Positions 13,711 to 51,350 of a stretch of 64,000 nt of DNA are shown here, one piece after another. The stretch lies in NCBI GenBank assembly GCA_029204225.1, contig CM055092.1:19461222-19525221 (forward strand). The letters run 5' to 3'. This stretch comes from Diphasiastrum complanatum (Eukaryota; Streptophyta; Lycopodiopsida; Lycopodiales; Lycopodiaceae). Made by a program: the position numbers and the translations under genes. Numbering within the stretch: position 1 is the first letter of the stretch; the number at the start of each line of letters is the position of its first letter. Under the pieces are notes generated by a model that did no database searches, had not been told where the DNA came from, and saw nothing but the letters and a program-made list of their open reading frames with translations.

Positions 13711-15469
13711 TCACCTCGTGCTCCCCAGCCGATGAGGGTTTTCCAGGTTTCCAGAGGCACGGCTGTAAGGAGGTGTAACATCATTCTTGATCGTATTAAC
13801 CATGTCTTCCCATGTCATAGCTCTAGGTGAGGGTGATAATCCTAGCTCCCTGACTTCCCTTCCCTAGCTCTTTCCATGGAGTGTGAACATGTTTCTTCAG
13901 AGTTTAGGATCTTAACTCAATCATATGACTGTGCGTGGCAAAAAGGGTGGTGCTTACAATTTTCGTAAGATGTCTCTGAGCACTCAATCAACAATTTTAA
14001 GGCACACGAAATGAGGCTAGTACACATACACCAATATAGAAATAGGATGTCATCTCTTTGTTACTTGTCGTGCAACGTGGGGGTGCCAGTTATACGCGCC
14101 GCCGTGTTTGATAGGCAGTGGTATTTTGCCAATCGCCAGGCCTAGATATTTCACTAGGCAGATCAAACGATGGAGGTGACTATCTTGACCCCTAACCTAG
14201 GTGGTGTGTTTCAACCAGGCACGGTGACACCCGCTCTCCTATTTTAAAGAGGTCGGGTTAGTGACTCAAATAGACACAAAAATGATTCATTCCCAAATAT
14301 AATATAAAGCTGGGTTTTGCAACCTAAGCGCAATGTCCATGGTGATTTTAACATTTGATAATTGTTCATACCATGAAAAGACACGACTAGCATGCTATAT
14401 AACTTGCTCATCATTACAAACTCATAACAATATTAATTGAACTGTAGCCAAGGCAATCTCAAAATGGTGCTATGCCAACGACATTCACAAAACAACTTCC
14501 TATTAGAGGAGTTCTCAATATCAAAAAGACCCTTTAAGGAATGCTATGTAGGATATACAAAATATCAAAATAAATAAAACAATAATGTTTATTTGCTTGC
14601 CCACACCACTCCCAAGGCCTCCCCAACTCCCAATGATCTAACCACAGTGTCTATAGTCACAGTTAAGATCTGTTAACAGTTCGCAGTATTAACTTGACTA
14701 AATTCAAAAATATTCCCTCCATTGGTTACGAAAAGGGCAATATTTTCACTGGATTTAGAATATGACCGCCATCCCCAACTTGAAATCAGGAAAAATTGCA
14801 AAATGTTTACATATGCATTCCTTCCACGAGAATGGAAATATGAGCGCCAACTACCTATTGGAATGAAAAAATGAGCGGCATTTCCAAATTTGAATCAAGC
14901 ATACAAGCATGGAGATTGGATTGATCGTACATAGTATATAATATAATCAAAGATAGTATTTTGTTTTGCTTCATAGAATCTGGTCATAGTACTTTGATGC
15001 AACTGATTACTCTATTATTTTTTTGATGATGACATTATAATCATCTACATGTGGATATCCCTATTGATTTGGCACCTTTGTAGAGAAGAGGAGGCAAATG
15101 CGTTCAAATATCTGCTGAAGATCGTTCTCGTTACAGGGCAGAAGGAAAGAAAAACGTGGATTTGTGAACAGATGAAATATTATATCCACAAGATCCAAGC
15201 ACTTTGACACATCCCACATTCTCTTCAATAACTCATTTACTTACATGGATATGCAATGGGCATAGTGGATTACTAGGATATTGTGAAAGATTGCAAAACC
15301 ATGGAAAACAACTTTATATGAATAATTTTCATAATCATTTGTAGATCAGCATTGGTTGCAAATGAGCATCTGAAGGACAATGACCTGATCAGAAAATCAC
15401 TGAGTTCGGTATTGACAACCAACCACAAAGTCTTTATTGGACAATAATCGGTATTCTCGAATCAAGTCC
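13711..15469. other. No gene seen; possible leader or LTR of the minus-strand gypsy copy
   Basis: Bases 14040-14260 are more GC-rich and contain GGTCGGGTTAGTGACTC and a CGCGCCGCCG patch, unlike the AT-rich surroundings. They may belong to the leader of the gag at 11258-13710. I could not find a second copy to define an LTR. From 14300 to 15450 there is AT-rich sequence without supported genes. Confidence 0.35.
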
Positions 15470-17138
15470 AAGGTCACTGAGGAATTAATGAACAAGGTCG
15501 GTAAGGTAATCGACTGAACGTTAATTCAGAGAGCATGTGATTTCTCAGGTATTAGCAGGGAGGCATATGCCAGTATATTTAAAATTATTAAAGAGGCTTT
15601 TGGACAATTGCATGTAAGAAAATTTCCCATTCCTCATCCTTTTCAGATAAGATTGGGGAGAGATGTATTGAATAAGGGTATGCAAAATGTCATTGGAATC
15701 CCTTTTCACATCAATGAGATTTACAATTCAAAGTCTGGCAATTTGTCATATAATTCTACCAACAACTTATTTGTGGATTTGAATCATTTATTGAGATTTA
15801 TAGTGAAGCTAGATGAATCGGAAGTTATAAAAGGACAAAAGTTGGAAAGAGTAGGTATTACTCTCATGAATGGAGCATTGAGCAATGCAACAAACTCCAG
15901 GGATCTCAACTTCAGTGTGCAATCAGAAAACAACATATGGTGGCTAGCATGTTTTCAGGTAAAAAATGGCTGTTATTCATGTGCAATTTCTTTTGGTAAT
16001 TGTTTTAAATACATAAAAACTTGTGATTCCATATGTTGAACAGATTATCAAGGAGGATCACGATGTTCTTTCCTGGATTTTTAGCAAAACAAGTTATCCA
16101 GATATCATAAAGGATCATATGAATGGCAAAGTACTTAGTGTTCCTGAAAGAGGTGAATTTTTGATGGAATGGCATTTAGTTGGAGACTTGAAGTCATTGA
16201 AATCTATGTTCAATGTATCTCATGGAGCAAATTTGAAACATCCATGTCTATATTGTATGAAATCATCAAATGACATTTCAAGGAACACAAGAGTTTCAAG
16301 AGATATTGAAGATCCCAACTAGAAATCAGTACTACCAATCCCTTTACAAAATGTGCATATTTGCACACTTCGTGGAGAGGTGAGGATCATAGAGAGATTA
16401 ATATATCTTCCTATCTTGTTTGCATGGAATACTAAGCCCCAGCATCAAAACAAGCAATCGCTCGATTAGAGGAAGTGTTGTCAAAAGCAGGCCTTCATAA
16501 AGGCCATGTTAAAATACAAAAAGATGAAAAGCTTTCGGGAAAAACAGGAAACGTACCCAATAAACCTATCATAGGAGGAGTCAAAGCTCATAGATTTTTA
16601 TCAAATCATTCTAAAGAGTCATCTAAGATCCAATATTCGGTTTGGAAAGATGTTATTTCTGTGACAGAAGACTTTGAAGATAAAGGAACAACAAGGGTAA
16701 AGAAGGTTGAAGTTTGGAAAAAGCTCGATAATATGATTGAAGTGCTTAGAAAAGACACAATTTCATATGCAGATGCACTCCTATTGGAGAAAACAGCAAT
16801 AGAGTTTGTAGATGTAGTTCGGGTGGCTTGGGGCTCAAATCACATCACCCACTACATGGTAAGATACATTTGAACAGTGTCTTACAATTTTATAATCTTA
16901 GTATAACTTGCTTGATAGATTCTAACCTATGCATAAATCTTTGATATTGCAGCACATACTAAGGCATCATGCATCATTTTTTGCAAAAAAGTATGGCAGT
17001 TTGAGTATATGGTCCTCACAAGGAATGGAGAAATCACATTGGCAGGCAAGAGTAGCATTTCATCGAAATACGCAACATGGTGGAACATCCTCAAAAAATA
17101 GTTACATCATTCAGCTATTCCAATGGTTTTATAGATGA
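15470..17138 (+). pseudogene. Transposase-like gene of unnamed family, spliced, decayed
   Basis: The reading starts in an open frame near 15470, with a TGA near 15510. It runs through GISREAYASIFKIIKEAFG, RLGRDVLNKGMQN and FSVQSENNIWWLACFQ. A consistent intron, 15958-16042 (CAG|GTAAAA to GAACAG|ATT), restores IIKEDHDVLSWIF. The second exon has LMEWHLVGDLKSL and a Cys pair, HPCLYCMKSS, then a TAG at 16321 and a frame change near 16430. A second intron, about 16859-16951 (ATG|GTAAGA to TTGCAG|CAC), joins to HHASFFAKKYGSLSIWSSQGMEK. This order recalls large uncharacterised transposase-like proteins of animals and early land plants with a conserved KYGSL-x-x-(F/W)-S-x-Q-G-(V/M)-E-K block. I cannot name the superfamily. 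It is broken in several places. Confidence 0.55.
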
Positions 17139-17251
17139 GCTCAAGTTTGATACACAACAAGATCAACTGAATATCAAAGATTCAAAAAAGCATGTGAATT
17201 TATAAGCCAAAATTCGATTGATGGCATTCAATAAAGATCAAACGCGTGTGA

Positions 17252-18347
17252 TCAAAAATTCTCAAATTTCACATACATTAAATGAAAAAGAGTACAATCA
17301 TTTTTTTTCATTGTCTCTAAGGACAATTTTTGCTGTGTGGTCATGAAGGACTTTTTCCTATCATACGGATATAAAAATCGAGTGGATCGCCTTTTGCTCA
17401 AATCTATATATCCTGATAGAATTGGCAAAGCAGAGGATCTCATAGGAACATTTTCTGGCACGTAATTAAACACTTTAAGAGCAACATCTCTTTTGACAAA
17501 AATGATTCTATATGTATTTTTTGGGTATTTATGCCCTTGGGCAAAATAAGATAGGGCCTTGATGGCCATGATTAAAGTTTCCGCATTCACAAAAAACCTT
17601 TCATGAAGAGCACAAATTTCGTTATTTAAAAAATATTTCAAATAATGAGCCAACGAGGCATCCTTCTGTCTCCCGCCTCGTCTCTCTCTCTCTCAATCCT
17701 CCATGCCTGCTAGCAAAGGCATCAACTTCAACGATATCCTACAACACATAATCAAGTGTTAGTCAAACTAGCAGATCAATCATCAGTTACACGTTAAATA
17801 GTAAATGATTTTCGTGAGAAGGTGTACTTACCAAATCCTCCTCGTCAGCTTGGATCATACCAGCAGCTTCTAAATTGTTACCAACAATAATGGTGGATTG
17901 CTGGTCAGCTGGAATAGTATATATGAGAGGTGGCAGATATTTTTTCTGAAAAGCCAAAAACTCCTCCTCACTTGGCATATTAGCCTCATATGCCCTACTC
18001 TCAGATAGCATCCTGTGAAGGGCATCTGTTCCACTTGCCCATTCTACCTGGTCCTCATAATCGATGCCATCTATGAGGTCGTCATCATCAAAGTCAATAA
18101 AATCATTAAATTCAGAAATCATCCTTGACATAAGAGATAATATCTCATCTTCTCTGAGATCCATTACGTCTCCGATTTCGCTAATGGATAAGAATGCAAC
18201 ATTGTCCATATGGTACACAGGGAGGTCCATCAAGGTTATGCTCTGGTCAATCTCGCTCACGTTAGATAAGGGAGAGATAGACAGAGAACGAGCCTTGGCA
18301 GGATCATATTGTTGTGGCTTTTCTATCAAACATGTGGACAACAACAT
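17252..18347 (-). CDS. Unknown acidic protein, two exons
   Basis: The first exon runs from an ATG at 18347 to about 17833. It encodes about 170 residues with a strongly acidic middle (FIDFDDDDLIDGIDYED) and a C-terminal part with SEEEFLAFQKKYLPPLIY. It ends at a good donor (TTG|GTAAGT). An acceptor (TGTTGTAG|GAT) near 17738 opens a second exon. The long frame 17653-17252 (AHYLKYFLNN, RIIFVKRDVALKVF) lies in it, but joining the two needs a one-base shift across an (AG)n run at 17681-17697. The gene converges on the transposase-like gene ending near 17138. I recognise no domain. It could be an accessory gene of the same mobile unit or a host gene remnant. Confidence 0.4.
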
Positions 18348-23321: not shown

Positions 23322-25326
23322 GACTGAGAAGGTACAATGAGCCATGTTTTTATCTTGATATGTATTAGTTGCTTTATTTCCTAAATTTTGTTCTTTAATT
23401 CTATTTACTACCTGCTTGCCATTTCAACAATTTTTTTGGTGTGTTTTCTTGTTTCAAAACATCAAGATATCATCAAATCAGGCATACAATCAGTCTTTTT
23501 CTGTGAAAACCACAAGAATCAGTCTTTTGAGAATATTTTTCTCATGACCACATCAGAGAGCATTTGCCCAACCTTTTTTAAGTATGCATGATTCATTTAT
23601 TACCTCGAATTCTGTCTCAGAGAAAAACTTTTTAGAAATAACAAAAAATTAGTCTTTTGCATCATATCTTCACTAACAGAATTCGTAGATAATTTGTTGA
23701 GCCTCAAAATCATCTCCACAATTTCTCTATCATATCCGCAAATTTTGATCAGACCCATTTTTGTACTATCAGTCATTTTCACTCATTTTTGTACAAAAAA
23801 ATAGCTTTCAAGAACTCATCGACCCTCGGAACAGTGCCTCAAAATTTGCGAACCTCATTGAGAAATTGTGGGCACTAAGGACGATTACTGGGTAAAGTTA
23901 TGAATTCCTGTCCAAAAAAATTCTATATATAGGCCTCACCCATTCCCTCCACGAGTTCATTTTAGTCGAAAATGAAGATATGAGCTGGATAAATCTAAAT
24001 CATGAAGAGGCCTAAGTCATTTTTTGAGAATATATCTCCTAAATACTTGACTTGTATTTAAAGGACAAGACCTTTCAAAGTAAAAACATTGCCTTGGATA
24101 GTCTTTATTAGGTCATCCACACGAAACGACTAGATATGAATCGACATTTTAAACTAGAGTAGTTTTAACTCTTATTAAAATATACCTCTTATGGTATAAT
24201 TGAACATACATTCAACTTGATTGTTAACTAGACCTTTTCATGGGAGCGACGCACCTGTAGTTTTAGAGGTGTGTTTGTTTGTCCCGAACATATATCGATC
24301 ACACGCTTCAGTCTCGACCATCGAGAGAGAAGATTTTATGTATTTGTAAGAAGTGAATAGAGTGTTGAGAGTTATTCTCCATTATCTATGTTCTCCGCAA
24401 TGTTGAGTGTGAGTGATCATGAGTCTACTAGCAATCTCTAACGCATTACATGAATTACTTTCTGGTCAGACAGACTCTCTAGCGCATTACAGTCATTTGT
24501 TGTGTATCCGTAAAATATGCTCTAAGGAACTATCTTAAAATCATCTTATTTGTCTATCATGAATATTTTCTTTTCGGCACTCGAATAATGTCTATATTTG
24601 GTACAGTCTAGCACGATCATTGAATAAAACTGTATGTATACATTTGAGATGACAGTCCCTGACTGAAGAATTGAGTCTTTGATCTTTGTTCCTGCTTGTA
24701 ACTGACATAAGTTTCTAATGTGCTCTAAAACTATTCGTGCTCTTTAACCATAATCTTGGACTTAAGTTGTTGAGGACTTCTGTCTAGAAACGAACAGTGC
24801 GCGAACGCCATTAATTAATTGTTTGCACAACCATGAATACATCGAACATTTCTCGACTCTCTGTTGACACCTTAAGCCGGAGTGTGGTATTGTTGTACTA
24901 TTCTGATAACATCTCACCTGTAGAATGCATTTCATTCGATTTGATATAGGCAAGACTGTTGTTCTGGAATTATTAACACTACACACCCCCAACACAAGTA
25001 ATATTGGTTACTTTCTAATGTCTGTTGACAACCAGAATAACTCTTAAAGCCATTTCACTCGAAATAAATCATAAATTGTACCAAATACATAACTTTCTAA
25101 CGTTGTCCTCTGTGGGTTTGACATTATTTACTACAAAATCTCTATTAACCTTATTGGTATAGTATGACACTAAGCTCCGGGCAGCCGCATAAATCCTCAT
25201 GCACATGGTAGAGGTCCACATTGCCAAGATGGATCGCATCCCGCCTAGCGATATGTTTTCATTGACTATGACCATGGATGACCCCACCAACAATCACAAG
25301 TGGGCCGAGAAAGTTGTTGACAAACT
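23322..25326. other. No gene seen; holds a dispersed repeat
   Basis: This AT-rich stretch follows the integrase and may include the decayed 3' end of that element. The only structure I can support is the repeat at 24355-24560. Several open frames are short and featureless. Confidence 0.45.
24355..24560 (+). repeat. Dispersed repeat, inverted copy at 51160-51350
   Basis: This segment matches the reverse complement of 51160-51350, including TGTTCTCCGCA and TGAGTGTGAGTGATC. Both copies translate in one frame to a similar peptide beginning near ISNALHELLS. The copy here has an in-frame TAA after CSKELS. The family is unknown. Confidence 0.7.
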
Positions 25327-27815: not shown

Positions 27816-29011
27816 TTATAACATTAGGTTGTTTAGCACATAAAAATATTGAAATAGCACATATTTATACAAGTGTTTAAAAAGATACACAAACTTAATC
27901 ATCGATGATAAATTGTAGAGTGTATTTTGTACGTCATTGTTGAAGAGACCTCGAATTGAAAGTGGAAGTATGAATTGGAACATCTTATGCCAATCATGCA
28001 ATTTCAATCTACTTAATTTATCATTTTTGGTAAATGATTTTCATTAAGAATGTGCATAGCCTGTTGAAGTTCTCATTTGTTTTATGACATGTTTTACATG
28101 TGAGAGTTGCTCTTTTGTAAGAATCCATGGCATGCTAGGTAGAATCTCACCTTCACCTTCAATGTATTGAATCCAATTGGGTCTTTTCACGTCTGCAGCT
28201 TGTAGATCTTTACGAGTTGCGGAGTTGTCTTTTATGCCAATAATGTGTTTCCATAGTGATTCACCGACGTTTTTGAATATGTCCATAGGATCCTATAGAT
28301 GATTTATCAATAAATTCCTCCAATAGGATAATTTATGAAAAATAGACAACCATTTCATACCATCAATGAATTCATTCCATGAAGAATTAATATCATGATG
28401 TTTAAGCCATTCACCATGCCATCATGTTACTCCCATGCATGAGGGTGATGGTGTAGTTAAAGGATTATTTTCTCTCCCCCCAAAAAATCACCTATTCGAC
28501 CTTTGAAAAGGATGATCAGCCGACAAGTATTTGCGATGATTTTCGTAGATCACTTTTTTCAACATATTTGTGCTATGACAACCCTCCAAAAGTGGTCCAC
28601 AAATGTAACATGCGTTGTAACCCAATGTAGTTAAACCTGCATAGTTCATAAACCAAATGTGAGATAAGCTTAGTCAAATGCACTCAAACAATAAACCCTA
28701 AAACAAATTCGTATGATTTGATACATACTTGAACATTCACTTGAACCGGGATAGTCATGCATTGTCCACATTAGAATTCCACGCACAATGAAGTTCTTTT
28801 GTTCTAACGGTCTCGAGATGTCGTGAGTGTGAATACCATTCCAAATAATGCATAATTCATCGAACAAAGGTGCAAGATACACATCCATGTCCTTGGCCTT
28901 GTACTTTCTTGGAATCAATAGTACTAATAACAAGTGTTCCGTTTTTATACTCAACCATGGAGGTATATTATAATTAACGAGCACAACTGGCCATGTGGAC
29001 CAAGTGAACAT
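27816..29011 (-). pseudogene. tnp2: CACTA (En/Spm) TNP2 transposase remnant
   Basis: Reading leftward from 29011, TWPVVLVNYNIPPWLSIKTE, LIPRKYKAKDMDVYLAPL and LFDELCIIW match the TNP2 transposase core of plant CACTA elements. GILMWTMHDYPG follows. After breaks come YNACYICGPLLEG, ENHRKYLSADHPF, then FKNVGESLWKHIIGIKDN and the DUF4218-like KLHDWHKMFQFILPLSIRG near 28000. The order is correct along about 1.2 kb but needs several frame changes. The N-terminal half and the terminal CACTA repeats were not found. The protein would cut and move the element in the nucleus. Confidence 0.8.
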
Positions 29012-35258: not shown

Positions 35259-35817
35259 CACCGGGCTCCTTTTATTCACATGAGGTATAGTGCTTGGTTC
35301 CTCTCCAAAACACAATTTTTTGATTACTCTTAAGTTCTTGTGTGTGCAATGCATTACAGGAGTTTTTAATATCAAAAAGATCCTTTATAAAGATGCTTTT
35401 ATTTATTTTCTTTAGTTTCGATCGTCACCAAGCCCAATCAAAATGCACAGATTTGAAATCTACGTAACATAGCTCAAACTAACTAAAAAATAAAAATGCA
35501 ATATAAAAAACTTTGAAATTTGTGTCCGGGCAGCATGGACGTATCCCATTGGTTTCTTCTTCCTGTCCGACACGTGCTAATCTGCCCGACGTCAATATCT
35601 CAAGTTAAATTTACTTTACTATACTGGTTAGTATAATGAAATTTTCTAACTATACTAGTTACAGTTATAGAAATATAGTATATACAGTTACATAAAATAT
35701 GGTATACGCAGTAACTGTGACTATGTTGGCATTCACATTAGATTAAATGTGATACGAAAAATTAAAATTAAGTAACATATCAGATAGATTTTTGGTGCCC
35801 AAGCTTTGAAAATAGCA

Positions 35818-37103
35818 ATGGCGAGGAGACCCAGATCTACAATCGATCATGTGATTCTTTACAATGAGAAAGATGAAGCTGATAATTGGAAGCCAACAAA
35901 ATATACGAAGAACTCATGGGTATTGCTGCATCCATCATCAAAGGGCAATTTTTGACAAAAGAAAAGAGCAAAAATGACTTACAAATCTTATTGGAAAGCA
36001 AAAATTTTAGAGTTTAAGACTACCCCGGGAGGTCAATCGATATAAGAAGTCTTAGTACAACATGTATATATGCATTCAAAAATCAAAGTACATGATATCA
36101 ATCCTCATGATCATCAAAAATGTAATTGTAAGTATATCAAAACATATGCACTCTACAACAATCATAGGTGATTTCCTTTATTGATGCTCTTCGGATTATG
36201 ATTTAAATGCTTCAACGTTGTTTTTTTCTTTCAAATTTATATCCATCATGCATAAGTGAATGGGAGCTCGCACAATCACTTGCAAGAATATTAGACGTGA
36301 TTCACTCTGATGTTGGAAAGCTACAATACAGAGGAAGAAGTTCAAAGGAACTTGCAGATTGTGGTATATATTTTTATGAATCTTTATATACGCCACAAAC
36401 AGATGGAGGTTTTGGCAAGCTCGAAACAATTCCATTGCCTAGTTTTCAAAGTGATGAGTGGCCTACTCCTGACAGCATTGTTTCTGAATCCTTGAGATGC
36501 AAGCTACTCATTGATATTAAAAATGCTATGGAGATAAGCACAGGCTCAAAAATTGTTCACCTAAGTTGGTTTATCTCATTGCATACATTTGTTGATTTTT
36601 TCTTGAGTGCTAGTGTTCGTAGGACACCAACTTTATTTGTTTGCAAGGATTTATCAGATGAGACTTTGTCAGATCTCATGGATCAAGGCTGAGATAGTAA
36701 AACAAATAATGACATAGAATGCAGGATTAAAAAGTCCTCAATGATCTTTCGTTATCATATCGAAAAGCAAATGCTCAGTCTCACATTTAGCTACCAGAGA
36801 TACAAGAAAATTGAAGGTACATGAATGGTCACACAAACCGAATGGAGATAAGCATTATCTACAATGAGGAATATTTGACTATGGTTGAGGTGGAAGAGCA
36901 CTGGAAGGTTGATTTTATCAGAACAGAGCTCATACTATTACAAACCAATCTACCAACATATTTCAGATTTATCATCAACGGAAGACTCGTAAGTACTTTA
37001 TGTTTATTGCCATTTCAAAATAGAACATAATAATAGAAAATGTCATCATTTACAATTTCACATTCACTAATATTTGTCATGTCACAGATGCGAAAAAGAT
37101 AGG
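35818..37103 (+). pseudogene. Unknown spliced gene next to the H3-Ulp1 gene
   Basis: An ATG at 35818 opens a short basic exon (MARRPRSTIDHVILYN, NWKPTKYTKNSWVLLH) that stops near 35958. A main exon from about 36255 to 36815 reads EWELAQSLARILDVIHSDVG, SKELADCGIYFYESLY, DIKNAMEISTGSKIVHL and TPTLFVCKDLSDETLSDLM. It has one in-frame TGA at 36690 and then continues open to a possible donor at 36815. A last part (EEYLTMVEVEEHWKVDFIRTE, TYFRFIINGRL) ends at a clear donor (CTC|GTAAGT, 36988). The acceptor at 37088 (GTCACAG|ATG) gives MRKR and a stop. I recognise no domain. It runs toward the minus-strand H3-Ulp1 gene and ends about 250 bases from it. Confidence 0.4.
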
Positions 37104-37357
37104 AGCTGATAACGTGCTGCAAAGATCTACCTGCAACAATCAGCATTGTGGAAGAACAATAGTTTCAAATAAACTTTAGTAAAAATCTGCGTATACACCC
37201 TTTCATTCAATAAATGAAAGCCCAAGTTGGGCATCTGTACATGTATTTTGTGCTTCCAAATTCATAAACTGGAACAACATTTGATATATCAATGTATATT
37301 TTTCTATGAAGTCTATACATGTATTTTTGTTCTATGCTATCTATATTTTTTCTGATC

Positions 37358-39106
37358 TTAATTTAGTAAAACTACATCATCCTTTGCACCATCATCAATA
37401 ATGGGAGGCTGAAGCCTTGCCCTAGCCAGTATACTCAGGATAATTTCTTGTCTAAATCTGTACACCTGGCTTGATGTGTACTCAAGAAGTGTAAACTGCA
37501 AAATAGAACATTCATGTATTAGTAATGGCCAATAACATCACCAGAATAGAAAACTAATCATGATTTCAAAATAAGAATAAACAGAATTTATTACCTTAGA
37601 AATATCAACATCTTGTTGAAGGATGAACCACTCAAAAAACAACTTGGCATTGTACAATGTGTACCACCCACAGCTGAATGAATCATTTTGCTGGGGTGAC
37701 TGCAAAATAATTCAGCACACAGGAAATCAATTATGAAATAGAATGAATTAGATTGAAAATATTTCATTAGAATACTGATTTCAAAATGCTATTAAGAAAG
37801 ACAGAGTTAACCTCCAAGCTTATGCCAATCCACGAAATGGGAAACGTCTATAGGAATATATTTATTTAGATATGGAATGTATATATCTACATCCTTATGC
37901 GTATTTCTTGCCGAATTCATCTTGACACAAGAACATTTGATAATATTATTTATAGATCTCTTAATAGAGATCAGGTTTAAACTCTAGTGGTCCCTGCAAA
38001 ATAAGATTGAAAGTACTTTAGCGACAATTCTGAGAACTATTTAAATTGAAAATGTCAATGTTAATGCATAAAACAGGAAGAAGCACTTAATATATCTTAC
38101 TTGGTATGATAAGGAATGACCAGATACTTTGTTGTTGGTGTGAATCCACTTGTCAGACACTGTGACAATGTGTCATTATTCTCCTTGAAGGCCTGGAGCA
38201 GAAAGTTACTCAGCACCAGCAACTCAGTTGATGAAGCTCTTGCAATGTCAAATTGCAAGAGTGTCAGCCCGGACTCTATCACAGGATCACTGATAGAAGC
38301 CCATTTGTCTTTGAGATCCAGACAATCTAGAACTCTAAAATTAATACTAAAATCAAGTTCATCTAGTCTAAAACAAAAAGGAGTAACAATTGTATCTATA
38401 GCATCCGATATGTCTTTCTCAAATTTAAGATAATCATCTGAATCTATATATGTATAGAAATTGGGAGGAGGAGGAGGAGGTGGATGTGTAGAATCTACAA
38501 CAATTATAGGAGTATCCAAAACAGAGGTAGCTATATTTACAGCATTATCAACAGTAGCATTATCTACAATGGATGCTGGGATAGGCTTCATAGAATCTGA
38601 AGGGTTAGGCTTCACTTTCTTAGGAGCACACTTGGGGGCTGTCTGCTTCTTAGGACGCTTCGTAGGAAGATGAGTCCTATCTACAGGAGTTGGTCTAGGA
38701 GCAGCAGGCTGAGATACATGTAACCTACAGTACCTATCCCTCATTCTCATCAGAAGCTGAAAATCCTTGGGCATTATGGTAACCCTCTTGGTATGGATGG
38801 CAAGCAAAAAAGAATTCTAAAAAAAAAGGCTAATATAATCTTCAGCAGCCTCCTGAGGCACTGAAGAGCACTCAGTGTGAATCTAACGTGCTGTCCGAGA
38901 TCATTTTTTGTTATGTTCCGGACAGCACGGTAGAATGGAGCTCTTGGGATCAACAGAGCTGTTGACCTTTGATACTTGCATATCTCAGAGAGCCACCTGC
39001 TGCGGTTGCGCGTTCTAGGTCTAGCAGGTGGTGTGATGGCAACCGCAGGAGATGAGGATGAGCCAAGAGAGAAGAAGTCTCTCCTTGTCTGCTTTCTCCT
39101 ATCCAT
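37358..39106 (-). pseudogene. Histone H3-like domain fused to Ulp1/C48-type protease
   Basis: From an ATG at 39106 the protein has a short basic tail (MDRRKQTRRD). A histone fold follows that aligns without gaps to H3 from R-T-R through EICKYQRSTALLIPRAPFYRAVRNI. LLIP, a loop 1 one residue longer than H3 and the short tail recall CENH3. A one-base deletion near 38851-38857 and a TAG at 38817 interrupt the fold. It then resumes with EDYISLFF and AIHTKRVTIMPKDFQLL. A basic, proline-rich linker (KRPKKQTAPK, seven prolines in a row) leads to KDKWASISDPVIESGLTLLQFD, like the start of a Ulp1 domain. Exon 3 (37595-37699) reads SPQQNDSFSCGWYTLYNAK, with the catalytic Gln and Cys. Exon 4 is 37358-37495. 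Introns have clean GT-AG ends. Exon 2 (37812-37993) is off frame. Confidence 0.65.
38887..38929. repeat. Perfect 11-base inverted repeat inside the H3 fold
   Basis: CGTGCTGTCCG (38887-38897) and CGGACAGCACG (38919-38929) are exact reverse complements, 21 bases apart. On the coding strand they flank the codons of loop 1, the one-residue-longer segment. Confidence 0.85.
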
Positions 39107-39933
39107 GGGCGTGAACTATGTGATAGCGGACTTGTGCGTGAAGGTCAGGATGAGAAGGAAGGGATGATAAAGAACTCGTAGAGGACCGCTATGTACAGAC
39201 AAAATGTACGGTATATCGAACCTATGCGAGCCGAATATCAAAGAGAACAATTAGATTTGAGGAAAGATGCAGAAGTGCGATATGGGGTGACACGTAGGCA
39301 GACGTATCGGACTTGTGCGCATGGAAGGCAGTAGGAGGAATTTCGATTGTGAAGGGCGCGCACAAATGCGATATGCGGAGAGAAAAAAAAAAGTGAAAAA
39401 AATTCATCGAAATTTGTGATTTTATATTGGGGTTCGCACGTGCGAAAGTACGTCCTGTCACACGTGTGGGAGTTGTACGGACAAATGCGCGAGTGACACA
39501 TGTCACCTTGTCACATTACACGTGTGGGATTTGTACGTTCGAATGCGAGAGCGACACGTGTTTATGAGCAATCGAATGAACACACGACACGTGTTCAGGT
39601 GTCATTTCACACGTGTGTAGGTGTCATCTCACATGTGCATGCACCTGTTGTCGAATTGAAAGTAGACACGTGTCATAAGTCCGTTGACCACACGTGCAAA
39701 AATTTAGTATAAATGGCACAAAAATCGAATAATTTTTTACCTTTTGCGTTTTCGAAATTCGCAACATATCGATTTTGTGCATGCTCATTGCTGTCCGTTT
39801 GCTTGCAACTATACTTGCTCGCGCACAAGTGCGATATTCTGTATCTGTCTGCCGTACATATCCATCTTCTGCACCATTTTGATAGTTATTTCAGTTCTCC
39901 CGCGCGCACAAGTGCGATATTCACGCTACTGCC
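39107..39933. promoter_or_regulatory. Divergent intergenic region with eight G-boxes
   Basis: Eight CACGTG hexamers start at 39437, 39461, 39519, 39555, 39588, 39610, 39667 and 39691, several within ACACGTGT. In plants such boxes bind bZIP and bHLH factors and are part of ABA-response elements. A TATAAAT at 39708 lies properly placed for the plus-strand ORF at 39934. A second motif, GTGCGATAT, occurs at about 39273, 39367 (as ATGCGATAT), 39829 and 39912, mostly preceded by GCGCACAA. The region separates two diverging genes. Confidence 0.7.
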
Positions 39934-40560
39934 ATGGCCTCTTCCTCATCATTCTCACGAGAATCAGGCTTGAGTTCATTTTTGAGTGAATTTGGGATTA
40001 TTGAAAACCTAGACTACTTCCACAGTCTATTCAGGCCATATCTACATGTTTTCAGGACTGCACAACCAAATTCTGACGTATTTTATGAATATTATGTCAG
40101 ATTTAGAGATATACTTAGCAAGCCTGTTTTCTCCATAGGTCCACTCCCGTACATGCATTATACTGATCTTGTTCATTTCTTCCCAGGTTTTAGACATAGA
40201 CTGGATAGAATGTTCACCAAATTGTTTGACCTTTTCAATAGTTCTATGTGTCCGTATTGCAACAAGAAATGTCGATTGGTTGAATATCAGAGTGGTTTCA
40301 TACTTTTTCTGTTAGTTCAGATCCCAGATGATGATGTAGTTCCTGTTGCTGACCCTCCTTTTGCACCCTCCTCTATTCAGTCAGCCATTAAGGATATCAG
40401 TCACTTTCTTATCGACACTCTTGATAAAGAAAGTAACTTCATTGATTTAAATACTGATGTTCTCCGGGATTCTTTCATTAGCCAAAATACATCTGATGAT
40501 GAATCCAAATCTATGGAGGATTCAAAATGTCTTTTCAATTTGCCTGTATATTATATTCCA
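39934..40560 (+). CDS. Unknown protein, 3' end cut by a copia insertion
   Basis: The ATG at 39934 follows the TATA box at 39708 by about 220 bases. About 205 codons are open. The protein is serine-rich at the start, then has aromatic-rich helical sequence (YFHSLFRPYLHVF, YYVRFRDIL) and a Cys pair cluster CPYCNKKC near residue 110. An acidic C-terminal stretch contains NTSDDESKSMED. Around 40540-40560 the reading runs into the minus-strand copia element B, so the natural end is lost. I do not recognise the family. It diverges from the H3-Ulp1 gene across a shared promoter-like region, and the two may have been regulated together. Confidence 0.5.
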
Positions 40561-44167: not shown

Positions 44168-44812
44168 AAGTACAAGAGAATAAGCGATTGATCTAATGCA
44201 AATCCATTTTTAGCAAGTTTTGGTGCTAAAAACTAGTATTGAGAGGGCAAGCTAGAATCTTGATTTTGGTGAGAAGATTTGATCCCAAACTTGGTACGGG
44301 GGTCCAAATCCATACTATCCACATGTGTGGGCACCTCTGGACCTGCATTTAATGCATGTTATTCATTTGATCCAAAGAAATTCAATTTGTGAGCTTTCGA
44401 TGTAAGTTTTGGTGGAAATCTTAGGATAAGCTACCAAGATTGAGTGCCATTGATTAGATTTGACATAGGGTCATGAAATCTAATTAATCTAGGCTGAAAT
44501 CAGGTCCTCTAAACTTGTTTTACAGGTCTTGAAAGTACATCAAAAAGTGTGAGGGAGATTTAGTCATCTTATTGTCCAAAAATAGCTAAAATTGGCAAGA
44601 TTTGATTGTAAGTAGATTTCACATCATCTTATCTTCATTCCAACTTTGTGAGGGAGTGCTAGAACTGAGATTATAAGTCCATTTGTTGAATTAGAAATCT
44701 AATTTGAGTGAAACACTACAAGAGAGAGACCTTAGTGAGTTTTTGGTAAGATTTGTTTGAAAGTAGTTTTTACTTCATCTTATTTTCATTCCAGCTTTGT
44801 GAGAGAGTTATA
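44168..44812 (+). other. Leader of copia element C, with a tandem repeat
   Basis: Bases 44594-44743 and 44744-44812 are the first and second units of a 150-base tandem repeat (GGCAAGATTTG versus GGTAAGATTTG). The rest of unit two, from GGAACTATGATTATAAGTCC, lies at 49864-49950, on the far side of element D. This shows that element D was inserted into the leader of element C. Confidence 0.75.
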
Positions 44813-45527
44813 TGTCATGAACGGATTTGTTTTGTATCCTGAACGTATTTGTTTCTTTGTATTTTCTTGTGCGGAAACTTACAAGAGCCTAGATAAAGAT
44901 CACAAAACAGATTTTATTCTAGCAATCAAAACAACGGAAGACAAGGAGATGCACGAGATAGAGCAACTATATTATCAGTTTAATTTTTAGAGCAAGGTGA
45001 TTAGTGTCTCGCTCTTTGGCAGCCTGATGATCTGCTCTTTCGTTGTGTTCTGCTCGTTGGCAGACTTTCATGCACAACTATTTCGTTTCTCTTCTTTTTC
45101 TTTTATGCTCTACTCATGCACACTCTCTGTGTATATTTTGGTCCAGAAAAATAGTTTATATCTCCACTGTGTGGAGTTTACAAGATAGCTAAACAGAAAA
45201 TTACAAGAGTAGTTAACGCTAATCAACTAATCAGTTACTCTCCGTTATTGCTAGCCGTTTCAGCTAGGCGTGAAGTTTAAGACTTCACGCCTGTTGAGCT
45301 GCCAATTGACAACGCGAAAGATTTTCTTTCGTTTCGTGTCGTGTCTTTTTGGTCCTGGAGCCATGTTTGACTTTCACAAATCATTCGACCTTCGAGTTTT
45401 GCTTTGTTTCGTGTCTTAGGGTTTTTGAGGTATGTTGACTTTCGCGAATTGTTCGCCATTTGACCTTCGCTTCGTGTCACTTCATTTCATGTCGTGGCAA
45501 AGTTGCAGGAGTTCACCATTTCTGACA
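44813..45527 (-). repeat. 3' LTR of copia element D
   Basis: It begins TGTCA at 44813 and ends TGACA at 45527. About 430 bases of it match the right-hand LTR (49415-49859). The adjacent purine-rich tract on the element side reads GGTTCAAGAGGGAG on the minus strand. Confidence 0.85.
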
Positions 45528-48475: not shown

Positions 48476-49474
48476 CTATAGAGTCCCGATTCCTTTGACA
48501 TCGTGTCTGCTCCCATCACCTAGAATCATTGCTCTGTTATTTTTGAGTTCTCTGAAGTCGATCAAGATTTTCTTGTTGCAGATGGTGTGTGATGTTGTTC
48601 CTAAATCAATGACTACATCGTAATCTTGTTCAGTGTAGCTCGTCGAAGCTTCATCAAGTATTGTGAAGGCTTCATCACCTCTATCTGCATCTTTGGATGA
48701 CTTTGCAACATTTGTTTTCTCAGTCTTGTTCTTTCTTTTTGGGTTGAATCTGCAATCGTATGCAGAGTGCCCCTTCTTCTTGCAATGCATGCAAGGTATT
48801 GCTGGATTGAACCAACATTTGTTGGCTGTATGGCCTAGTTTGTGACAGTGATCATAGGAAGAAGATTGTTGATTCAAGGACTTCGTCTTGTCGAATCTGG
48901 GTCTGTTCTTGTTTTTCTTCCTTCCTTTTGTGAAGAGAGCTTTCTCTTGATCACTTCTTCCTTCTCCTTCGTCCCTCATCAGTCTCTCATCAGCGACAAG
49001 ACTGATTTCTTTGTCGAATGTCATTTCTGGTAGATTCAGTATGAGCATTCTCAACGGCTGATAGGACATAGGTAGAGACTTCATAAAGTACATCAACTGT
49101 TGTGGTGCTGGGACCTGGTGCTCCTGTCTTGATGCAGCGAGTTTAGCAAAGATCGTTTTGATCTTCTCAACATGCCGGTCTAACTGGTTGTCATGCCATC
49201 GTATGGATTGCAGCTGATTGTGAAGATGCATCACTGAAGTTGCAGTCATTACTTCGTACTTCTATTTTAATCTTTCCCATGTTGCATGGCTGCTTTTGCA
49301 GTCTTCAATCTGCATGAGTAGATCTTCATTGATGGATGAAATGATGATTGCCATTGCATGCTCATCCTTTTTGATCCATTCAGCTCTCCTCGAGTCTCCC
49401 TCTGGAGGTTCGTTTCTCTCCTTTTTCTTTTCTACTCTATTCACGCACACTCTGTATGTATATTTTGATCCCAA
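48476..49474 (-). pseudogene. gag: Copia element D gag-protease
   Basis: The Gag part reads NEDLLMQIEDCKSSHATWERL, then a TAG at about 49260, then LHNQLQSIRWHDNQLDRHVEKI and LVADERLMRDE. The first zinc knuckle is YDHCHKLGHTANKC, with Tyr in place of the first Cys. The second, CMHCKKKGHSAYDC, is intact. The protease entry reads VVIDLGTTSHTIC, where copia proteases have D-S-G-A-[ST]-x-H, so Leu replaces Ser. ILGDGSRHDVKGIG follows to the stop. The open frame runs out of the LTR without a primer site, because the LTR end and leader are deleted. Confidence 0.9.
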
Positions 49475-49859
49475 AAAATAGTCTATATCTCCACTGTGTG
49501 GAGTTTACAAGATAGCTAAACATAGAATTACAAGAGTAGTTAACGCTAATCAACTAATTAGTTACTCTCCATTATTGCTAGTCATTTCATCTGGGTGTGA
49601 AGTTTAAGAGCTCACGCCCGTTGAGCTGCCAGCTAGCAGCGTGAAAGATTTTCTTTCGTTTTGTGTCATGTCATGTCTTTTTTGTTCTAGAGGCATGTTT
49701 GACTTTCGTGAATCATTCGACCTTCGAGTTTCACTTCGCTTCGTGTCTTAGAGTTTTTGAGGTACGTTGACTTTCGCGAATTGTTCGCCATTCGACCTTC
49801 ACTTCATGTCGCTTCGTTTCACGTCGCAGCAAAGTTGCAGGAGTTCACCATTTCTGACA
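49415..49859 (-). repeat. 5' LTR of copia element D, truncated
   Basis: It matches the outer 430 or so bases of 44813-45527 and ends with the same TTTCTGACA at 49859. The inner part corresponding to 44813-45090 and the primer site are missing, and gag sequence follows directly. Confidence 0.85.
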
Positions 49860-49980
49860 TGATGGAACTATGATTATAAGTCCATTTGTTGGATTAGAAA
49901 TCAAATTTGAGTGCAACACTGCAAGTGTGAGACCTTTGTGAGTTTCAAGTCAATCAAATCTATTTCTTATTTGTAGAAGT
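49860..49980 (+). other. Leader of copia element C, continued
   Basis: GATTATAAGTCCATTTGTTGG matches 44672 onward in the first leader unit. The stretch leads into the ATG of the element C gag. Confidence 0.75.
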
Positions 49981-50999: not shown

Positions 51000-51350
51000 T
51001 GCCAGTTCTTTCATGTTTTAGGGAAAGTACTTGAGTTTGATTTTGTCGCGACCTCTTTCAAGGCGAAGTCCTCTAAGTTTGTCGCAACGAGATAACATAG
51101 AAAAAATTGGCATGGTGCTTACTAAACCTAAAGAAAGTATTCGCGACAGACGAATAAGATGGTTTAAAGATAGTTCTTTAGAGCATGCTTTACGGAAACA
51201 CAACAAACGACTGTAATGCACTAGAGCATCTGTCTGATCAGAGAGTAATTCATGAAATGCGTTAGAGATTGTTAGCATACTCAAGATCACTCACACTCAA
51301 TAGTGCGGAGAACAGAGATAAGAGAGAGTAACTCACAGAACTCTATTCCC
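51000..51350 (-). repeat. Dispersed repeat with 90-codon frame, inverted copy at 24355-24560
   Basis: The minus strand holds an open frame of 90 codons (51290-51018). It reads ISNAFHELLSDQTDALVHYS, LLCFRKACSKELSLNHLIRLSR and ends KIKLKYFP. The copy at 24355-24560 shows the first 45 codons with a stop. The repeated part ends near 51350. It abuts the NPF exon and may lie in its former intron. The function is unknown. Confidence 0.6.

Follow-up and report, generated by a model that had tools for sequence, protein, structure and literature searches.

A histone H3-like gene joined to a Ulp1/C48 protease-like domain resides in a high-copy DNA transposon of Diphasiastrum complanatum

Our analysis of a 64,000-nucleotide stretch of the Diphasiastrum complanatum genome (contig CM055092.1; hereafter the window) identifies a gene that joins one histone H3 fold to one Ulp1/C48 domain, and this gene is a resident of a high-copy DNA transposon with terminal inverted repeats (TIRs) and a length of approximately 8-9.5 kb. 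The fusion is present at the level of the DNA in three diverged families, in many copies of which some are intact, and its H3 part has a recurring tail pattern and a fold that bears the mark of purifying selection. The best explanation that we can offer, and one that we regard as evenly poised between right and wrong, is that the gene encodes a nucleosome-tethered H3-Ulp1 factor that would act against the silencing of the transposon.

In the window the gene runs on the minus strand from 39106 to 37358 and is divided into four exons (Table 1), as the first-pass annotation had it, whose coordinates and strand are both correct. Translation of 39106-38777 gives 'MDRRKQTRRDFF...SEICKYQRSTALLIPRAPFYRAVRNITKNDLGQHVRFTLSALQ...', and that of 38816-38100 gives '...AIHTKRVTIMPKDFQLLMRMRDRY' followed by a basic proline-rich linker, in a single unbroken frame of 239 amino acids. 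The Pfam Histone profile matches the first of these pieces alone with an E-value of 9.4e-12 and both pieces, joined by an X at the frame break, with 2.8e-22, and PDB matches of the H3 fold reach approximately 6e-17, the best 60 listed all being H3 or its centromeric variant. The match of positions 37711-37541 alone to Peptidase_C48 (E 4.8e-4, 20.5 bits) lies narrowly under the cut-off of 20.7, and a PDB search with the C48 part returned weak matches alone (best E 0.17). GT or AG is recognisable at five of the six intron borders, the second donor not being found by our script; the splicing of all copies is conceptual, with the donor of intron 2 uncertain. The local copy had been described as decayed, and so it is: the frame of the H3 fold is broken between 38855 and 38801, near a T run, and exon 2 carries a TAG immediately past the codon of the catalytic His.

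Table 1. Features of the H3-Ulp1 gene and of the transposon remnant that holds it (positions in the window)
Feature	Position	Strand	Remarks
Exon 1	38101..39106	-	H3-like tail, H3 fold, basic proline-rich linker, N-terminal part of C48
H3-like N-terminal tail	38993..39106	-	MDRRKQTRRDF; R2, K4, Q5, T6 and R8 retained; Asp at position 9
Histone H3 fold	38735..38992	-	Two frames, one break; end approximate
Exon 2	37819..37993	-	C48 segment; catalytic-His codon, then TAG; MNS at the expected Asp-Ser; 3' border decayed, approximate
Exon 3	37595..37699	-	SPQQNDSFSCGWYTLYN; oxyanion Gln and catalytic Cys; basis Pfam C48 4.8e-4
Exon 4 and stop codon	37358..37495	-	
Transposon remnant holding the gene	35352..40557	-	3' terminus at 35352; 5' half lost at 40557, where a copia coding stretch starts
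Decayed 3' terminal inverted repeat	35352..35383	-	
Gene A, convergent	36207..36689	+	No Pfam match; homologues close to the H3 gene of families 2, 4 and 6 (L071)
Gene B, divergent	39934..40557	+	No Pfam match; cut at the start of the copia element
Non-coding stretch between the divergent genes	39107..39933	.	Repeated CACGTGT and GCACTTGTGCGCG-type motifs (direct repeats D3, D4)

The 1.74-Gb genome of the same plant, from which all copies discussed here come, holds many relatives of this gene. A search with the Pfam Histone profile gave at least 153 matches, a lower bound since 150 of 6,325 first-look candidates were scored; 13 of them are canonical H3 genes (approximately 164-165 bits), and most of the others score approximately 95-110 bits and are distributed over many contigs. 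Twenty of these loci, picked mainly for long open frames, were fetched, and eight belong to the family of the window gene (family 1) and 12 to a second family. When the exon 1 product of one family 1 copy, L017 (328 amino acids), was used as the query, an exon encoding H3, linker and C48 was present in 122 of 122 scored matches, these being the best of 9,955 first-look candidates, with 84-100% identity (100% being the query itself) and mostly over the full length of 1-328. Thus, this order in one frame is the normal state of family 1, and the joined exon in all scored matches together with the Pfam E-values rules out chance as the origin of the fusion.

By manual count, exon 1 is free of internal stops in 24 of the 122 scored copies and interrupted in the other 98. 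Among eight larger copies spliced by script, two (L017 and L027) are open throughout, to 466 amino acids, and six are broken; the guess that intact copies exist elsewhere in the genome was therefore a good one. The profile search that had been proposed for the conceptual exons returned both domains: the four-exon product of L017, with two extra residues at splice joints in the query, matches Histone with 1e-27 and Peptidase_C48 with 4.7e-10, the latter at 40.1 bits against the cut-off of 20.7. As a separate observation, TAG predominates among the stops of decayed copies, a bias compatible with deamination at methylated CHG sites. At another locus (L067:1-1300), a transposase exon stands in frame with the H3-linker exon in a 402-amino-acid frame that is probably a deletion product.

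Copies of family 1 share a stretch with sharp ends, and these ends are inverted repeats beginning CATTAGAGGAGTTCTC, the first bases being CATTA, or CACTA in L028. The genome contains 2,024 occurrences of the 32-nt terminal repeat with up to two mismatches (990 forward, 1,034 reverse) and none, on either strand, of its reversed control. From end to end L017 measures approximately 8.7 kb; of four further pairs of termini taken from the listing of 32-nt ends, three span 8.1-9.5 kb and the fourth spans 2.6 kb. The fuller copies have a common gene order, namely transposase-like exons, gene B on the opposite strand, the H3-Ulp1 gene, and gene A again on the opposite strand. Apart from H3-Ulp1, Pfam gave nothing better than E 0.12 for the element's own ORFs, and neither a MULE or hAT transposase (best E 0.12) nor tnp2 was found in its two transposase pieces. 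A 3-bp target repeat is seen at one of the seven copies or assumed pairs that have both ends visible. Comparison of the window copy with eight others by blastn shows the similarity to end at +3754 (35352) and at -1451 (40557) relative to the gene, and several other copies continue on the 5' side past the latter limit to about -4900 or -5700. The first-pass annotation was thus right about the fusion, its decay and its intact relatives, and missed the high-copy DNA transposon to which they belong as well as the related families that also bear H3.

CACTA ends flanking the window gene were sought among the best 40 of many weak pairs, none of which was convincing. A tnp2 remnant of CACTA type at 28461-29008 (minus strand; Pfam Transposase_21, 1.3e-25) lies 6 kb past the 3' end and is therefore taken to be part of a separate element. 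A Helitron had been hinted at by the CTAAT 3' terminus, and this idea was given up on discovery of the inverted 5' terminus. Between the divergent transposon genes, repeats of the GCACTTGTGCGCG and CACACGTGTG types at 39357-39922 are candidate binding sites for a protein of the element. The window contains further repeats: two direct repeats (44657-45527 and 49409-49945, 87-88% alike) that resemble the LTRs of a minus-strand copia element, a 219-nt inverted repeat (24355-24573 and 51130-51348, 86% complementary, 26.6 kb apart), and a tandem array of units of approximately 25 nt (AAATCTCAACCGACGG...) at 927-1481, within the first 1.5 kb.

The transposon has several relatives, not all of which display the protease part. 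Loci of family 2 carry homologues of gene A, gene B and the transposase of family 1, and the window itself holds another, divergent member of this transposon group at 15422-18251, with transposase-like exons on the plus strand and gene B on the minus strand; no H3-like match was found in it. By eye, a gypsy-type reading frame adjoins this second element. An H3-like gene without a protease in the stretches read is found in families 2, 2b (L040), 3 (L035) and 4 (L042-L044), the little downstream sequence read in families 3 and 4 being too short to exclude a protease exon. For family 2, a six-frame comparison of locus L022 with Pfam gave no C48, only Histone, weak CENP-T/CENP-S and pieces of copia. 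The H3-C48 fusion recurs in families 5 (L068, L072) and 6 (L069, L071), which are mutually close and keep the exon order, with a comparable splice site, although their C48 profile scores are under the cut-off of 20.7 (E 0.021 and 15.1 bits in family 5, E 0.019 and 15.3 bits in family 6). Gene A lies downstream of the H3 gene in L071; none was detected in L040, L068, L069 and L072, all of them short stretches. A search of the genome with the C48 profile itself yielded no more than three matches, the likely reason being that the domain is interrupted by introns, and two scans of viral contigs with pieces of the window found no relative. A genome search with an Arabidopsis CENH3 fold (entered by hand) listed the 13 canonical H3 genes followed by lower-scoring H3-like sequences, at least 150 matches in all, without singling out a donor of the transposon H3.

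A tree of 22 H3 folds places the fused H3s in one group (92/90), the remaining transposon H3s in another (83/67), and CENH3 together with canonical H3 elsewhere (85/84); the alignment has 91 columns, the CENH3 and other reference sequences were entered by hand, and the support is moderate. The grouping is suggestive of a single fusion event or a single loss.

The tail of the transposon H3 differs from that of canonical H3, whose first 44 residues have lysines at 4, 9, 14, 18, 23, 27, 36 and 37. It starts with MDRRKQTRRDF in family 1, MARTKQTARDP in family 2, MAHTKQTARRN in family 2b and MARTKQTARLT in family 6 (L071). Tails could be read in 24 copies (11 of 11 in family 1 including the window, nine of 12 in family 2, L040, one of two in family 5 and both in family 6). 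Lys9 is present in none of them, the position being taken by Asp, Gly, Arg or Leu, and Lys4 is kept in all but one (23/24). Exactly one lysine occurs within the first 40 residues or so in 18 of the 24, the rest having none, two or three, and neither of the two tails counted for this purpose has a Lys at 27 or 36. The fold, compared in one sequence each from families 1, 2 and 3 (that of family 1 a composite assembled by eye), retains R69, R83, H113, R116, T118 and D123, which we take to make the expected contacts with DNA and the partner H3, and has lost R49 and R63. Canonical H3 of the host has Tyr41 at eight of eight loci; the available sections of a study of H3 variants place the first appearance of Phe41 in H3.1 in ferns (PMC5809374).

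Selection was evaluated by comparing two subfamilies of family 1 (L016 and L025 versus L014, L017, L024, L026, L027 and L028). Between them, the H3 fold has a dS of 0.477 and a dN of 0.056, a ratio of 0.12, and its fixed differences are synonymous at 16.5 of 51.4 sites as opposed to non-synonymous at 3.5 of 170.6 (Fisher 1.8e-8, on rounded counts). The other parts of exon 1 have ratios of 0.21 (tail), 0.49 (linker) and 0.45 (N-terminal part of C48), the constraint on linker and C48 being weaker than that on the fold; exon 3, with the Cys, has 0.17, and exon 2 has 0.37, with L026 left out on account of a shifted end. Within the larger subfamily the ratio rises to 0.56 for the fold and 1.66 for the tail, and for the single pair of the smaller subfamily the fold gives 0.24. 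The values of the larger subfamily are those expected of dead copies, and the H3 fold has therefore probably been subject to selection in the jumping lineage, although the higher ratios within subfamilies count to some extent against our reading. The corresponding values for the H3 of family 2 are 0.40-0.56, at a divergence too shallow for an argument.

How might such a protein serve the transposon? As we picture it, the H3 module would pair with H4, with histone chaperones or with both, and would thereby bring the protease domain onto the element's own chromatin. There, the C48 domain could remove SUMO from silencing factors or bind it, and the net outcome would be anti-silencing, by analogy with VANC and KIU of Arabidopsis VANDAL elements. 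Since the tail has neither K9 nor a counterpart of K27, the H3 module would be unable to take the silencing marks at these positions. A more specific version, which we put forward tentatively as a possibility, sees in it a transposon-owned H3 that retains the fold and most of tail residues 1-8 and whose only tail lysine, as a rule, is K4, so that it would carry the activating mark and not H3K9 or H3K27 methylation, and which in one branch is fused to a Ulp1-type protease with the residues His-Asn-Gln-Cys; the element would thus be packed in nucleosomes that cannot be silenced, and SUMO would be stripped from the silencing machinery.

Among copies of families 1, 5 and 6 with a legible active site, all 12 retain the His, all 11 the Gln and nine of 11 the catalytic Cys, the exceptions having Tyr (L014 and L068). 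In L071 the Cys is present and the Gly that follows it is changed to Arg; in the window copy and in L016 the Trp after the active-site His is a stop. At the expected position of the catalytic Asp, however, all 12 readable copies of the three families have Asn (MNS, MNL or MNF). This position was set by eye against what we take to be the YDS motif, and the choice of the catalytic Gln is likewise our assumption. Because families this far apart have the Asn in common, it is not a product of recent decay, and it may mean that protease activity is low or absent. The earlier description of a chromatin protein that removes SUMO is therefore retained in part: going by its domains, the product would be a SUMO-protease-like protein associated with chromatin, and the removal of SUMO is put in doubt by the Asn.

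This substitution is also what speaks for a scaffold devoid of protease activity, in which the C48 domain would serve to bind SUMO or proteins that carry it, and the H3 domain to bind H4 or chaperones, and which would bring the transposition machinery to chromatin or titrate the host's histone supply. The weaker constraint on the N-terminal part of C48 as compared to H3 (0.45 versus 0.12) points in the same direction. Against it stand the retention of His, Gln and, in most copies, Cys, and the constraint on the Cys-bearing exon 3 (0.17); moreover, papain-type enzymes function with Asn in place of the Asp. We consider a scaffold rather unlikely.

A second alternative concerns the H3 module, which in the first-pass annotation was likened to CENH3 on account of LLIP and a longer loop 1. 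A CENH3-like module could direct the element or the protein it encodes to centromeres, either for insertion or for interference with the SUMO regulation of the kinetochore. The fold is indeed a divergent one, LLIP is found in copies of families 1 and 5, families 5 and 6 have RW after loop 1, and this loop is extended in families 1 and 6. Yet it is not extended in families 2 and 5, and the transposon H3s stand apart from CENH3 in the tree, with its short alignment and comparison sequences entered by hand; moreover, they differ from CENH3/CENP-A in having a canonical-type KQTAR start, in being multi-copy and in being transposon-borne. In addition, the positions of 83 of the 122 copies, namely those on contigs of known length, show no deviation from a uniform distribution (KS p 0.31, in a weak pooled test that uses no centromere positions). 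The CENH3 character of the transposon H3 appears weak, and centromere targeting is improbable.

It could also be argued that the gene is a passenger, i.e., that fragments of host genes were captured by transduplication and amplified without a function. Plant transposable elements often capture Ulp1 and other fragments, according to the parts of two reports that we consulted (PMC13317346, PMC2528002), and the stops in exon 1 of 98 of the 122 scored copies would be in keeping with this. A functionless passenger is, however, hard to reconcile with the ratio of 0.12 for the H3 fold between subfamilies and its strong excess of fixed synonymous differences, with the recurrence of this layout in three families that have diverged, and with the proximity of gene A to the H3 gene in families 1, 2, 4 and 6, and we hold it to be very unlikely. 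That two adjacent genes were read as one, as the frame break inside the H3 part of the window copy and the conceptual joining of exons might invite one to think, is barely credible given a single unbroken exon from the H3 tail through the start of C48 in 24 of 122 scored copies and in L069 (family 6), and an exon unbroken from the fold onward in L068 (family 5).

We thus return to the nucleosome-tethered anti-silencing factor. If the H3 module does enter nucleosomes, the element would be a parasite with its own histone and would offer a direct test of the defence of mobile elements by nucleosome editing. On a practical note, transposons of this kind can inflate the counts of histone and CENH3 genes in such genomes.

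Ulp1 domains in plant transposons and H3 genes in fungal transposons are already known, as far as the portions of the literature consulted go; a fusion of H3 and Ulp1 was not seen among the papers listed in searches of an open-access library, most subscription papers being outside that scope. A close parallel is with the VANDAL elements of Arabidopsis. According to the sections consulted, their VANC proteins lift silencing and bind specific non-coding motifs, often in tandem repeats (PMC5735166), and some VANC-type genes of these non-TIR MULEs, namely KAONASHI / KIU, carry Ulp1 (PMC13317346). Like the present element, those that bear KIU are multi-gene plant DNA transposons with a high-copy gene for an Ulp1 domain (PMC13317346). 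Repeated motifs also occur here in the DNA that separates gene B from the H3 gene. In contrast to the VANDAL elements, Ulp1 is here fused to H3, TIRs are present, and the transposase ORFs have no Pfam match. CACTA elements of grapevine and rice are likewise plant DNA transposons with an Ulp1 domain (PMC2528002), but the sections consulted describe no histone in them, and the present element has no tnp2 match in its own ORFs.

With respect to the histone part, the nearest relatives in kind are fungal. H3L or H3-like genes have been described in hAT elements of Pyrenophora tritici-repentis and Pseudocercospora fijiensis, with 784 copies inactivated by RIP in P. fijiensis and full-length copies with ESTs in Pyrenophora, in the passages available to us (PMC6710886, PMC3538342). 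These are DNA transposons that bear and amplify an H3-like gene, as is the element described here, but they are fungal, belong to the hAT group and, in those passages, have no protease. The TET/JBP DNA transposons of fungi also have an epigenetic enzyme aboard that is thought to lift silencing, in this case a dioxygenase and not an H3-protease, judging from the part of the report consulted (PMC12730594). The fungal histone copies were described mainly as captured genes; the H3 gene of the present transposon group has the look of a durable functional component, whose fold is selected, whose tail has lost the lysines used for silencing and which, in one branch, is fused to a SUMO-protease-like domain.
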